In this document: in pieces, positions 3,393 through 43,507 of the stretch
Numbering within the stretch: position 1 is the stretch's first letter
Layout: every line of letters begins with the position of its first letter
Origin: Deltaproteobacteria bacterium
GTDB lineage: Bacteria; Desulfobacterota; BSN033; UBA1163
Assembly (NCBI GenBank): GCA_016875195.1
Contig: VGRY01000013.1
Span: 1-64,000, forward strand
Length of the DNA: 64,000 nt
Reading direction: 5' to 3'
Notes under the pieces: generated by a model
The model's database searches: none
The model's input: only the letters and a program-made list of their open reading frames with translations
Told to the model about the DNA's origin: nothing
Translations under genes and position numbers: made by a program

Positions 3393-3626
3393 ATGGCAGT
3401 TCAAATGAGAAGACGGAAACGAGATATTGAGAGAAATTATCCAGCAAGGCAGTTTGCGAGAAAACTGAGGCGACTTGCGGACTGTATTGAACATGGTAAA
3501 CGGTTTCGGATACAGGTGGCTGGAGAGCGGATCGTTATTCCGCCGGGTGCCCTTATCAGTGTTGAACATGAGCGTAGCGCTTCAGGGGAGGAAGTCGAAT
3601 TTCAAATGAAATGGAAGACGCATTAA
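3393..3626 (+). CDS. small amphi-Trp-domain-like protein
   Basis: The start ATG at 3393 has GGGGAGG upstream. The product is 77 residues: a basic start (MAVQMRRRKRDIERNYPARQ), a helix (FARKLRRLADCIEHGKRF) and beta-strands ending in EEVEFQMKWK. This order of short helix followed by strands with a final F-x-W strand resembles the amphi-Trp domain of uncharacterised small bacterial and archaeal proteins. No function is known for the domain. An in-frame ATG at 3348 exists without a ribosome site. It converges on the DUF4124 gene. Confidence 0.6.
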   Translation: MAVQMRRRKRDIERNYPARQFARKLRRLADCIEHGKRFRIQVAGERIVIPPGALISVEHERSASGEEVEFQMKWKTH

Positions 3627-26731: not shown

Positions 26732-27469
26732 ATGCGTACCATTAAACTTTTTATTGAATACGAAGGGACGAACTACCTCGGGTGGCAGGTACAGGCGAAA
26801 GGTCCCACCATCCAGGGGATGATCGAGGAGAAACTAAAACTTCTAACAGGAGAAAGTGTCCGTTTGACAGGATCCGGAAGGACAGATGCTGGGGTACATG
26901 CCTTTGAACAGGTTTCTCATTTCAAAACAAAAAGCGGAATAGATCTCTCTTCGATGCAGAGGGCTTTGAATAGTCTTCTCCCTCCTGATATATCAATCAA
27001 AGGGATAGAGGAGACGGTAGAGAATTTTCATGCACGGAAACAGGCTAGGAGCAAGGTCTATGAGTACCGGATTTTGAATCGACCTATCCGGTCGGTATTT
27101 TATCGTGGATATGCCTGGCACATATCGCAGAGGCTGGACTGGAGGGAGGTAAAAAAAGCGACTCAGAAATTGGTCGGTGAACATGACTTCTCATCCTTCC
27201 GTTCAACAGGAACCCCAACAAAGACCGCTGTCCGGAAAATATTCTGCGCTGAATGGAAAAAAGACAGAGATGGTTTGATGCGATTTGAGGTTGAGGCGAG
27301 CGGGTTTCTGAAACAGATGGTCAGGGCCATCGTAGGAACCCTGGTCGAAGTGGGGAAAGGTAAGATTGATGCGGATGCATTCGAGAAGATTCTTGAATCA
27401 AAGGACAGAAAAATGGCTGGTCCAACCGCCCCTGCCCATGGATTATTTTTAAAGGAAGTGAAGTATTAA
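26732..27469 (+). CDS. truA: tRNA pseudouridine(38-40) synthase
   Basis: The 245-residue protein is a full-length TruA. GSGRTDAGVHAFEQVSHF holds the catalytic Asp of the pseudouridine synthase fold. YEYRILNR and FLKQMVRAIVGTLVEVGKGK are further family motifs. It converts uridines 38-40 of the tRNA anticodon arm to pseudouridine. Length and motif order are normal. Confidence 0.95.
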   Translation: MRTIKLFIEYEGTNYLGWQVQAKGPTIQGMIEEKLKLLTGESVRLTGSGRTDAGVHAFEQVSHFKTKSGIDLSSMQRALNSLLPPDISIKGIEETVENFHARKQARSKVYEYRILNRPIRSVFYRGYAWHISQRLDWREVKKATQKLVGEHDFSSFRSTGTPTKTAVRKIFCAEWKKDRDGLMRFEVEASGFLKQMVRAIVGTLVEVGKGKIDADAFEKILESKDRKMAGPTAPAHGLFLKEVKY

Positions 27470-27602
27470 TAAAAGAAGACTTTACCTTTAGGCCATTCCA
27501 ATTCCATTAGCTATCATCATCCTTACTCACTGAACAAGAGGACTGTAAGGCAAGTAGATGAGCGCAAAAGTTGGGATCATTCTGGCCTTTATAAAACCAA
27601 AT

Positions 27603-27636
27603 TGCTGCTATAAATGCGATCGCATTTATAGCAGCA
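27603..27636. repeat. perfect 34-bp palindrome downstream of the PaaX/Cas2-like gene
   Basis: Arms TGCTGCTATAAATGCGA and TCGCATTTATAGCAGCA are exact inverse complements with no loop. It lies 38 bp past the 3' end of the 27674-28294 gene and shares CTGCTATAAA and the GCGATCGC core with the second palindrome at 28309-28346. Confidence 0.97.
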
Positions 27637-27673
27637 GCTGTTAATACAGCAGGATTCTATTGAGGCAATAATT

Positions 27674-28294
27674 TTAGGGAAGCTGAAAGATGGATCGAAG
27701 CTGGGCTGTTCCTTCCATCTCCTTTGCTACAATAAAATTGATGTGAGGCGAGATCTCAAATAATTCGGAGAGGTAATCGATTTCTGATTTGCAGTCAAAA
27801 GGGTGGACAAAACAACTTTTTTGCAATTGGAAGAATCCAAGTTGTTTGAGTTTGGATCGGAGCGTTTCTCTCGCCTGCTTCTTACGTTCGGGAATATCGA
27901 ACAGAACCACACGCCAGCAGCCATCCCAGTTTATGGGTCTTTGAATGGCCATCCGGTCTAAATTAAATTGTAGAATCCGTTTTTTACCCTCTTCGGAGAG
28001 GGTGATGGTTGGCTGTCCATCCTTTTCGATGATGGAAACCAATCTTCTCTTATTGAGGTATGAAAGCGATTTGATAAAGTTTTCATTCTTTGCTGAGTGA
28101 CACTTTTTCGAAAATTGACGCACCAACGGGCGTATGGCTTTAGGCAGTACAGGCGTAAGAAGGGACGCCGGCATGATGAGACCCTCATTGATCATCGATA
28201 GAATATTATCAGCCAATTGACCTTTTGAATGGGTCTGAAATCCAGAGTGTTTAGAAGGAACTTCTCTGATTGCTTCTCCCTGATTTCTTTTCAT
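27674..28294 (-). CDS. PaaX-like protein with winged-helix N-terminus and Cas2-like C-terminal domain
   Basis: The 206-residue protein has a PaaX-type N-terminus (LADNILSMINEGLIMPASLL, a winged helix ending ITLSEEGKKRIL) and a C-terminal domain that starts WDGCWRVVLFDIPERKKQAR and continues LRSKLKQLGFFQLQKSCFVH. The second part matches the ferredoxin-like PaaX central domain, which has the same fold as Cas2. PaaX proteins are DNA-binding regulators. No phenylacetate genes and no CRISPR are near. ATG 28294 follows AAGGAGGTCAT. Two near-identical palindromes flank the gene, one overlapping its likely promoter, so it probably binds them. Confidence 0.75.
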   Translation of the reverse strand: MKRNQGEAIREVPSKHSGFQTHSKGQLADNILSMINEGLIMPASLLTPVLPKAIRPLVRQFSKKCHSAKNENFIKSLSYLNKRRLVSIIEKDGQPTITLSEEGKKRILQFNLDRMAIQRPINWDGCWRVVLFDIPERKKQARETLRSKLKQLGFFQLQKSCFVHPFDCKSEIDYLSELFEISPHINFIVAKEMEGTAQLRSIFQLP

Positions 28295-28308
28295 ATGACC
28301 TCCTTGAT

Positions 28309-28346
28309 ACTTCTGCTATAAAAGCGATCGCTTTTATAGCAGAAGT
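28309..28346. repeat. perfect 38-bp palindrome upstream of the PaaX/Cas2-like gene (likely operator)
   Basis: Arms ACTTCTGCTATAAAAGCGA and TCGCTTTTATAGCAGAAGT are exact inverse complements. It lies 15 bp before the start codon of the PaaX/Cas2-like gene and overlaps a good -10 box. With the 27603-27636 copy it shares CTGCTATAAA, GCGATCGC and TTTATAGCAG. Confidence 0.97.
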
Positions 28347-28361
28347 TTATCCGTCTGTGCA
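28333..28361 (-). promoter_or_regulatory. likely promoter of the PaaX/Cas2-like gene, overlapped by the palindrome
   Basis: Read leftward, TGCACA (28361-28356) and TATAAA (28338-28333) have exact 17-bp spacing. The -10 box lies inside the palindrome, so a protein bound there would block transcription. The start point would be near the centre of the palindrome, about 32 nt before the ATG. Confidence 0.45.
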
Positions 28362-28467
28362 GAATACTACGGGTTCTGTCCGAGGGGCTCCGTATTCAGA
28401 GGGTATGGTTGGGAGTTTGTTGGGGAATCGTTTCATTTGAGATTGGTATGAACCTTTGGGAATAGTT

Positions 28468-29601
28468 TTATATCTTAACCAACTCGTAATTTCTTGTGCC
28501 TAGTCCGATTTCTTCTGCGTAGGCGAGTTGAATGTTCCAGTCTACCTCTGGATAAAGGCCTCGGAATTTATCTCCACCTGTTTCCAGGTTCTTTGTAAGT
28601 TTCGAAGATTGATTTCCCTCTTCCTGATTGACTAGATCGACGGAAGCCTGATCAATGGCCACAGGGTCATCAGAGGCAAGCATTCCTATGTCCTTAACAA
28701 TCGGTGTGTCGGAGAATCTGTTGCAATCACAGGCAGGGGTAATCTGGGTGAGGAAGTTAAGATAGAGGGTCTTTCCTTTTTTGTGTTGAATGACCCCAAA
28801 GGCATGTTCCACCATCTTCTTCTGAAAAAGGGGGATCGATTCATTCCACTGAATTTGAATGACTCCAGCAGGGCAGGGAAGAATACACTCACCACAACCT
28901 ATGCATTTTTTTGAGTCGATGAGCGCTACTGGATGTTTGCCCTTAGATTCCAAATCCGGCGGGGCCATTGAAATGGCTTCCGCAGGGCACCAGGAGAGAC
29001 AGATTTCACAACCTGTGCATGCCTTTCCTTTCACTTTAGGAGAGATGTTTGAATGCTGACTCAACTTGCCTTCGCGACTGGCGCATCCCATTCCGAGATT
29101 CTTTAAGGTTCCACCAAACCCTGACAACTCATGCCCCTTAAAGTGGGTCACACCAATCAGAGCATCTGCCATATGAATGGAATGAGCAATAGAGACCGTC
29201 TTGAAGATGGGCTTATCTATTTTCACTTTGATTGCACTGTTTCCCCTCAAACCGTCGGCAATCAGGATCGGAGCGTTGACCGCTGGTTCGGTGAAGCCAT
29301 GTTCATAGGCTATGGTGAGGTGGGAGACTGCCTCGCTTCGGGTTCCGGTGTAGAGTGTATTTGTATCGGTCAGGAAGGGTTTCGATTTATATTCCTTCAC
29401 GCGGTCTACAATTTTTCGTAAGAAGATGGGCCGTACATAAGCGGTATTACCTTTCTCTCCGAAATGGAGTTTGATGGCCACCAGATCCTTCTCCTTGATT
29501 TTTCTTTTCAGGTCTGTCCGATTGAGGAGGAGATCAAGCATCTCCAAAGGCGTTTTTTCCGGTTCCGTCCTCAAGTCAGAGAAGAAGACTTGACTTTTCA
29601 T
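28468..29601 (-). CDS. DUF362 protein with internal 2[4Fe-4S] ferredoxin domain
   Basis: The 377-residue protein has the DUF362 core (VAIKLHFGEKGNTAYVRPIF, FLTDTNTLYTGTRSEAVSH, GVTHFKGHELSGFGGTLKNL) and two ferredoxin motifs inside the chain (CTGCEICLSWC, CIGCGECILPC). It ends in a further DUF362 segment with DDPVAIDQASVDLVNQEEGN. This layout matches the large group annotated only as DUF362 ferredoxin-like proteins. It is transcribed alone. The reaction is unknown. Confidence 0.87.
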   Translation of the reverse strand: MKSQVFFSDLRTEPEKTPLEMLDLLLNRTDLKRKIKEKDLVAIKLHFGEKGNTAYVRPIFLRKIVDRVKEYKSKPFLTDTNTLYTGTRSEAVSHLTIAYEHGFTEPAVNAPILIADGLRGNSAIKVKIDKPIFKTVSIAHSIHMADALIGVTHFKGHELSGFGGTLKNLGMGCASREGKLSQHSNISPKVKGKACTGCEICLSWCPAEAISMAPPDLESKGKHPVALIDSKKCIGCGECILPCPAGVIQIQWNESIPLFQKKMVEHAFGVIQHKKGKTLYLNFLTQITPACDCNRFSDTPIVKDIGMLASDDPVAIDQASVDLVNQEEGNQSSKLTKNLETGGDKFRGLYPEVDWNIQLAYAEEIGLGTRNYELVKI

Positions 29602-43479: not shown

Positions 43480-43507
43480 GTAGGGGCAATTCATGAATTG
43501 CCCCTAC
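43480..43507. repeat. perfect 28-bp palindrome in the leader of the KtrA-like gene
   Basis: GTAGGGGCAATTCA and TGAATTGCCCCTAC are exact inverse complements with no spacer. It lies 18 bp before ATG 43526, close to the GGAGGAGG ribosome site. The TAGGGGC...GCCCCTA type is a known dispersed palindrome in many bacteria, so it may be a repeat element rather than an operator. Confidence 0.9.

Follow-up and report, generated by a model that had tools for sequence, protein, structure and literature searches.

The window, by which we mean the whole 64,000-nucleotide stretch of DNA that was analysed, probably contains a single copy of a minimal mobile unit that behaves in a REP/RAYT-like manner and carries a gene for a winged-helix/Cas2-fold protein. 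Comparisons between genomes support the mobility of the unit, and we infer that its protein cuts DNA. A small mobile unit was one of two readings offered by the first-pass annotation, and it has gained in strength from homology that ends at the palindromes, from sister loci free of the unit and from dispersed solo palindromes.

The unit consists of a single gene between two palindromes (Table 1). Both palindromes are perfect, as had been described, and 28 of their 30 central positions are common to both. They are the longest perfect inverted repeats in the 64-kb window (loop up to 8), where only two other inverted repeats have arms of at least 11 under the same loop limit. Folded as single-stranded DNA and compared with shuffles, the downstream site has a z of -6.4 and the upstream site a z of -9.2. 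On the minus strand, the downstream site scores like a terminator hairpin. The upstream palindrome had been said to cover a -10 box; the hexamer TATAAA does lie inside it, yet a promoter scan returned no sigma-70-like site on that strand. The two neighbouring genes are not evident partners, in agreement with the description of a lone gene, and no repeat array was found within 27000-29000. A further perfect palindrome of 28 bp (GTAGGGGCAATTCATGAATTGCCCCTAC) lies at window positions 43480-43507 and is unrelated in sequence to the unit sites.

Table 1. Features of the unit and its surroundings in the window
Feature	Position	Strand	Description
Whole unit, palindrome-gene-palindrome	27603..28346	-	744 bp; layout repeated in G001, G006 and G011
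Downstream palindrome	27603..27636	.	34 bp, perfect, arms 17 bp, arm type GCTGC; centre C 27617 and G 27622 around GATC
Upstream palindrome	28309..28346	.	38 bp, perfect, arms 19 bp, arm type TCTGC; centre C 28325 and G 28330 around GATC
Gene, 206 aa	27674..28294	-	Winged-helix N-terminal part and Cas2-like (PaaX_M) domain
PaaX_M/Cas2-like domain, residues 122-197	27704..27931	-	Contains W123, D124, R128, D133, S160 and P165
AAGGAGG	28299..28305	-	Likely ribosome-binding site 5' of the ATG, read from the sequence
Left neighbour, tRNA pseudouridine synthase (TruA-like)	26732..27469	+	Convergent with the gene; marker of the insertion locus
Right neighbour, DUF362 ferredoxin-type protein	28468..29601	-	Marker of the insertion locus

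The encoded protein

The combination of a winged helix and a Cas2-fold domain noted earlier is borne out by a match to PF20803 (PaaX_M, Cas2-like; E 1.9e-22) and by an AlphaFold model, computed with an alignment of 79 sequences at a mean pLDDT of 85, in which a helical, winged N-terminal part is followed by a Cas2-like domain. The sole match at E <=0.001 in a fold search of the PDB is E. coli PaaX (8a39); other regulators rank next, followed by a Cas2 (5zyf) at rank 6 with E 0.02. Eight residues are invariant in all 79 homologues (M1, G103, W123, D124, R128, D133, S160 and P165), and W127, F132, R142, Q158, C168 and F203 are nearly so. D133 and the Q-x-S motif align with the Cas2-type Asp and the Q..S of SSO8090 (3exc, E 0.07). 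Passages of PMC10491678 report the aligned Asp of Cas2/VapD relatives as catalytic and tie the Asp and Q-x-S positions to catalysis in Cas2 relatives. E. coli PaaX retains the WDGKW motif but lacks R128, D133 and Q158.

In profile searches the PaaX equivalog TIGR02277 scores 31.1 against a cut-off of 264.55 and covers model positions 61-160 of 279 only, while NCBIfam cas2 (TIGR01573) is marginally passed at 26.1 against 24.5 and Pfam Cas2 gives 18.7 against 23.8. Since NCBIfam cas2 matches 54 of the 79 homologues at E <=0.001, annotation pipelines will probably label such genes Cas2. PADLOC assigned the protein to Cas2 models only and to no other known anti-phage system. Pfam PaaX_M is present in all 79 homologues, and the seven families listed for them include no transposase family. 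The H-hydrophobic-H pattern of a HUH motif occurs in just 3 of the 79 homologues (best His column 26/79), and a catalytic Tyr is not conserved (best Tyr column 46/79).

Distribution and boundaries of the unit

The gene is single-copy in the window's own genome (G000, a MAG 87 % complete). A protein search of 99 genomes, this one included, gave a match in six. Four of them belong to the 17 genomes of the window's family (G000, G001, G006 and G011), and in G062 and G097 the match is confined to the Cas2-like part. The G000 protein is 61 % identical to that of G006 and 59 % to that of G001, with 75 % between G006 and G001, and the gene diverges faster than its neighbours (65 % against 77-93 % identity). 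A scan of genomic contigs with an alignment of the four proteins confirmed 314 relatives, and the best 80 were analysed, comprising three members of the window's family and 77 other loci. These 77 are nearly all titled Patescibacteria, a few being titled 'bacterium' or 'uncultured bacterium'. The window clade forms one group (support 100/99) among the Patescibacteria loci in a midpoint-rooted tree, for which transfer of the gene from Patescibacteria to the window lineage would be the natural reading. Viral contigs gave 73 pattern matches and no confirmed relative, phages no match to the gene, and plasmids just three partial matches, to PaaX-family regulators. Within two neighbours on each side at the 77 loci, the commonest neighbour family occurs at 6 loci only, and we therefore see no general partner gene. 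Two PaaX relatives from another family of the phylum (L017 and L018) have no palindrome arm of at least 11 in the stretches examined.

Matched near-palindromes flank the gene in 62 of the 77 other loci, or 65 of 80 when the three family loci (3/3) are counted, compared to none in 390 displaced control windows of the same loci; the other 15 of the 80 gave no matched pair. To be scored, a pair needed a near-palindrome no more than 300 bp from each end of the gene; the threshold of 42 was set after seeing a stricter first scoring, and the highest control score was 41. That first scoring passed 39 of the 77 loci and none of its controls (395 shuffles and 381 displaced windows). The sequence of the sites varies by locus, the common plan being two arms that flank a central C-NNNN-G. 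Both sites of 61 of the 65 pairs have the C at -3 and the G at +3, a feature that the search had not required. Self-complementarity of the four bases in the middle is not needed, which fits a tetraloop or a spacer that separates two half-sites. Orientation could be read in 36 informative pairs, 28 of which match better as direct and 8 as inverted copies; with a margin of at least 4, 12 pairs are direct and 3 inverted. At L173 (4570-4740) the downstream palindrome is tandemly duplicated together with its flanks as a 90-bp unit, and BIME-like doublets of sites about 100 bp apart are present at L158, L178 and G126 C67.

The ends of the unit can be read from two Moraniibacteriota genomes, in which L155 and L188 align over 766 bases; this alignment begins and ends at the two palindromes, to within 2 bases, and the DNA outside the palindromes is unrelated. 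Flank homology was absent from 134 and present in 13 of the 147 locus pairs with alignable genes, though much of what is missing in the 134 may be plain divergence. At the place of L159, the gene is missing and no perfect palindrome has an arm of at least 10 in 9 of 9 congeneric loci examined (G100, G101, G102, G103, G106, G107, G108, G109 and G111), with one quasi-palindrome of 12/14 pairs in G111. Measured against G099, the genes flanking L159 are clearly closer in G101, G102, G106, G109 and G111 and farther in G103 and G108; a related unit that shares the site core lies elsewhere in G103. A different repeat of about 30 bp lies at L159 ~3585-3620, with ten more listed matches in G099 and one in G108.

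At the window's own locus, a gap of about 70 bp that contains no unit separates truA from DUF362 in G004, and in G007 the two genes are separated by 2.3 kb of other DNA. The two genes are on separate contigs, or one alone was found, in the remaining gene-less genomes, where the locus is unreadable. Two solo sites were followed in the same way. The C50 site is shared by G001 and is absent from the other 7 of 8 relatives, in which the two genes are still adjacent. The C59 place, a rearranged junction, has no palindrome of at least 12/14 pairs in 8 of 8 relatives; weak inverted repeats (10-11/14 pairs) are found there in G004, G005, G007 and G009, of which the G004 repeat, with GCAATTGC at its centre, may be a degenerate site. 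A DUF2283 gene adjoining the C59 solo site of G000 (L020:7577-7885) is 90-92 % identical to the G007 and G009 copies, while its neighbour is just 75-76 % identical; the DUF2283 gene was perhaps recently transferred.

The first-pass annotation had proposed to look for empty sites in sister genomes and to search for the palindrome core and the protein. Loci free of the unit were found, but a base-precise empty site was not, at C50, at C59 or at the unit-free loci, because the intergenic DNA of the relatives is too diverged or, at C59, rearranged. The second search favours mobility, as the unit recurs in unrelated flanks and solo palindromes are dispersed.

Dispersed palindromes and arm symmetry

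Searches with GCGATCGC and AWWGCGATCGCWWT revealed a family of near-perfect palindromes of 34-44 bp with a shared core and changeable arms, the arm types seen being GTACC, ACCAC, GCCAC, TCTGC, GCTGC, GCCGC and TCTCC. The best 50 of 76 GCGATCGC places in G000 were inspected singly, and the AWWGCGATCGCWWT pattern spanned all contigs. Hand curation resulted in 11 sites in G000 (the two of the unit included), 7 in G001, 5 in G006 and 1 in G011, with 0 sites for the pattern control in G000 and 0-2 sites in each of 13 family genomes without a detected gene. Gene-bearing members of the family have more sites, both by hand-curated counts (p 0.003) and by raw pattern counts (p 0.009). G000 has an extra degenerate site at C48:16570. 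The gene-flanking sites of G001 and G006 are of the dominant type of the respective genome. In G000 the flanks (TCTGC/GCTGC) resemble two solo sites, TCTGC on C73 and GCCGC on C59, and seven other sites are of the GTACC type. Sites are retained without a detected gene in G003, G004, G005, G007 and G009 (MAGs 88-98 % complete).

We could classify 21 of the 23 genus solo sites by crude ORF calls: the genes on either side are co-directional at 17, convergent at 4 and divergent at none. Several have been inherited at the same intergenic place, which is slow for a selfish repeat. Such orthologous sites are found at the 3' end of a nitroreductase gene in five genomes, at TatD/isochorismatase in three, and at the 3' end of hisD in three, with hisB next in two and the contig ending there in G000.

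Outside the family, similarity between proteins goes with similarity between their sites (Mantel r 0.27 over 41 loci, reached by 0/5000 permutations). A joined query of 15 palindromes, chosen as long and clean from 15 of the 41 loci, was compared with their 15 home genomes. Home-genome matches arise by construction. Foreign combinations of type and genome gave 2 site-length matches in 210 (L158-type in G126 and L178-type in G125), and two 22-base off-diagonal matches span a junction of the query. Counted by hand away from the gene cluster, solo cognate copies occupy 26 places in 10 of the 15 genomes (G112 1, G113 4, G114 1, G115 5, G117 1, G119 1, G121 1, G122 2, G123 9 and G124 1, one weak 77 % match in G121 being excluded), and 16 of the 26 were read as sequence. 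An own-type solo copy is absent in 5 of the 15 genomes (G116, G118, G120, G125 and G126). The exact core of the window palindromes is found in none of the genomic or viral contigs, a set that perhaps leaves the window's own genome outside, as would be expected if the types are lineage-specific. G126 (locus L165) has nine L158-type places (L309-L313), which may point to a further gene, of the L158 type, in this genome.

The Moranbacteria genome G099 (1.0 Mb) has two paralogous genes, L155 and L159, each with its own site subtype. Nineteen places in this genome fit the common pattern when up to 3 mismatches are allowed; 5 of them are at the genes and the other 14 lie elsewhere, against 0 for a reversed-pattern control. 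Copies of a site within one genome are near-identical over about 28 bp. A third type of near-palindrome centred on GCAATTGC occurs in G099 at L228:424-463 (GTACCACAGTTTATGCAATTGCATAAACCGTGGTAC), perhaps from a third, unseen gene.

The two arms of a site change together. At positions 13-16, counted from the centre, of 30 genus and family sites, departures from the consensus were on both arms and paired in 49 cases, on one arm in 5, and on both arms but unpaired in 3. Types differ between genomes, and shuffles were therefore also run within genomes. We found 140 of 143 pairs in G000 (shuffle mean 111.5; reached by 0/5000 column and 1/5000 arm shuffles) and 213 of 221 in G099 (mean 185.7; 0/5000 shuffles both ways). 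The effect is small in G001 (89 of 91 pairs, mean 83.9; 15/5000 column and 116/5000 arm shuffles) and missing in G006, which has 5 sites (57 of 65 pairs, mean 58.6; reached by 5000/5000). Thus the symmetry of individual sites is clearly maintained in two of the four genomes tested. Position 15 of 23 sites from G099, G103 and G107 may be G, T, C or A and is still paired in 21. G:T pairs are rare: positions 5-17 of the 30 sites contain them in 2 cells. The symmetry may come from selection on a hairpin or cruciform or from the mode by which sites are copied.

Proposed mechanism, known systems and competing readings

We propose that the two flanking palindromes would be the sequence recognised by the unit's own protein, and that palindromes, alone or with the gene, would be copied to new intergenic places both within a genome and between lineages. 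The protein may work as a Cas2-type dimer whose winged helices would read the palindrome arms, with the Asp pair acting at the central C-NNNN-G, which would be the tip if the site extrudes as a hairpin; it would thereby nick or otherwise remobilise palindrome DNA. Through the upstream site the protein probably represses its own gene as well. The narrower proposal that a Cas2 dimer with an invariant Asp pair is the engine of palindromic mobile elements in Patescibacteria, processing a hairpin or cruciform tipped by C-NNNN-G, is tentative, and we give it somewhat less than an even chance.

IS200/IS605 elements measure about 0.7 kb and have one ferredoxin-fold protein and a hairpin at each end. 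The first-pass annotation had compared the unit to them, and the comparison holds for layout: size (about 0.7 kb), a single ferredoxin-fold protein and terminal hairpins. It fails for the enzyme, as the HUH motif and the catalytic Tyr are not conserved and the unit has no Y1/HUH transposase; the palindromes are also longer and more perfect. Membership in IS200/IS605 or RAYT was ruled out on the same two features, which are not conserved in the 79 homologues.

As described in passages of PMC2817692, REP-RAYT systems have a gene between two palindromes, scattered cognate copies and coevolution of gene and palindrome; compensatory changes preserve palindromicity, the gene outpaces its neighbours and abundance tracks the gene. 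The unit resembles what those passages describe in layout, cognate dispersal, coevolution, kept palindromicity, a fast gene and gene-linked abundance. It differs from RAYT in its winged-helix/Cas2-fold protein with no conserved HUH motif or Tyr, and from REP in lacking both a fixed GT(A/G)G-like head and, among the sites read, any constant base beyond the arms. Its flanking sites, unlike those of REP-RAYT, are not consistently inverted, and its hosts are Patescibacteria and one Thermodesulfobacteriota lineage. The properties given in those passages are largely reproduced by an unrelated protein, and we therefore regard the unit as REP/RAYT-like in behaviour and not as a member.

Likenesses to the two protein families are partial. 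With E. coli PaaX (8a39) the protein shares the winged helix, the PaaX_M domain and the WDGKW motif, but it has 206 instead of 316 aa, carries the Cas2-type Asp, lies outside a paa operon and falls far under the equivalog cut-off. With Cas2/VapD proteins, including BPSL1038 as presented in passages of PMC10491678, it shares the Cas2 fold, an Asp after the first strand and a Q-x-S on the next strand; unlike them it is fused to a winged helix, has no cas neighbours and is flanked by palindromes. Open PMC titles and abstract beginnings among the matches listed, a scope with preprints and most subscription papers outside, do not describe this association of gene and palindrome, and within that scope we judge it novel.

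If the mobile reading is true, the orphan 'Cas2' and 'PaaX' genes of Patescibacteria would form the heart of a widespread mobile-repeat system that resembles REP-RAYT by convergence and is built on a different protein superfamily. One class of palindromic repeats found in reduced genomes would then be explained, and a likely Cas2 misannotation corrected. The narrower proposal, if true, would reveal a CRISPR-free, repeat-handling lineage of Cas2, with a bearing on the origin of Cas2 and of palindromic CRISPR repeats. With one gene of about 0.6 kb and sites of about 36 bp, the unit offers a small test system for the action of a Cas2 fold on palindromic DNA without Cas1, a question linked to the origin of CRISPR adaptation.

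One variant of the mobile model is that only the whole unit moves and that recombination between the flanking repeats deletes the gene, solo palindromes being footprints like solo LTRs. Mobility of the whole unit is the best documented step, the flanking sites are near-identical, and 28 of 36 informative pairs match better in direct orientation; on the other hand, 8 of the pairs match better inverted, and the extra sites beside genes and the doublets about 100 bp apart look like independent copying of sites. We consider this variant unlikely.

The other first-pass reading, an autoregulated PaaX-type repressor, has both palindromes as operators, the scattered copies as regulon or decoys, and the gene and its operators spread by horizontal transfer. 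The winged helix and the best fold match to PaaX suit it, as does an upstream site that stops 14 bases short of the start codon in the window and lies close 5' of the gene in most matched loci, and several solo sites are positionally conserved. Repression alone, however, leaves unexplained the second matched site 3' of the stop codon, the dispersal and the homology that stops at the palindromes in L155 and L188. None of the 21 classifiable genus solo sites lies between divergent genes, near-identity over about 28 bp in one genome is tighter than usual for a regulon, symmetry holds where base identity varies freely, and E. coli PaaX is without Arg128, Asp133 and Gln158. A repressor as the whole explanation therefore seems improbable, although the mobile reading leaves room for autoregulation at the upstream site as well.

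That the palindromes belong to the host, as bidirectional transcription terminators, hairpins that stabilise mRNA or sites that organise the genome, and that the gene merely tracks or binds them is very improbable, for despite the terminator-like score of the downstream site on the minus strand, the sites near gene 3' ends and those persisting in genomes without a detected gene, each gene and genome has site types of its own, the sites flank the gene in most loci against 0/390 displaced windows, G:T pairs are rare where symmetry holds, against the expectation for an RNA hairpin, and no Rfam family matches at 27400-28500.

Some sites are hybrids. Those at L080:1504, L092, L093, L056 and L021 have halves from different inner variants and look as though half-sites had been swapped at the centre. 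Two solo sites of G113 (L323 and L324) have a site-specific palindromic extension of 5-7 bp past the consensus, with arms of up to 26 bp, which hints at insertion into palindromes or fold-back copying.
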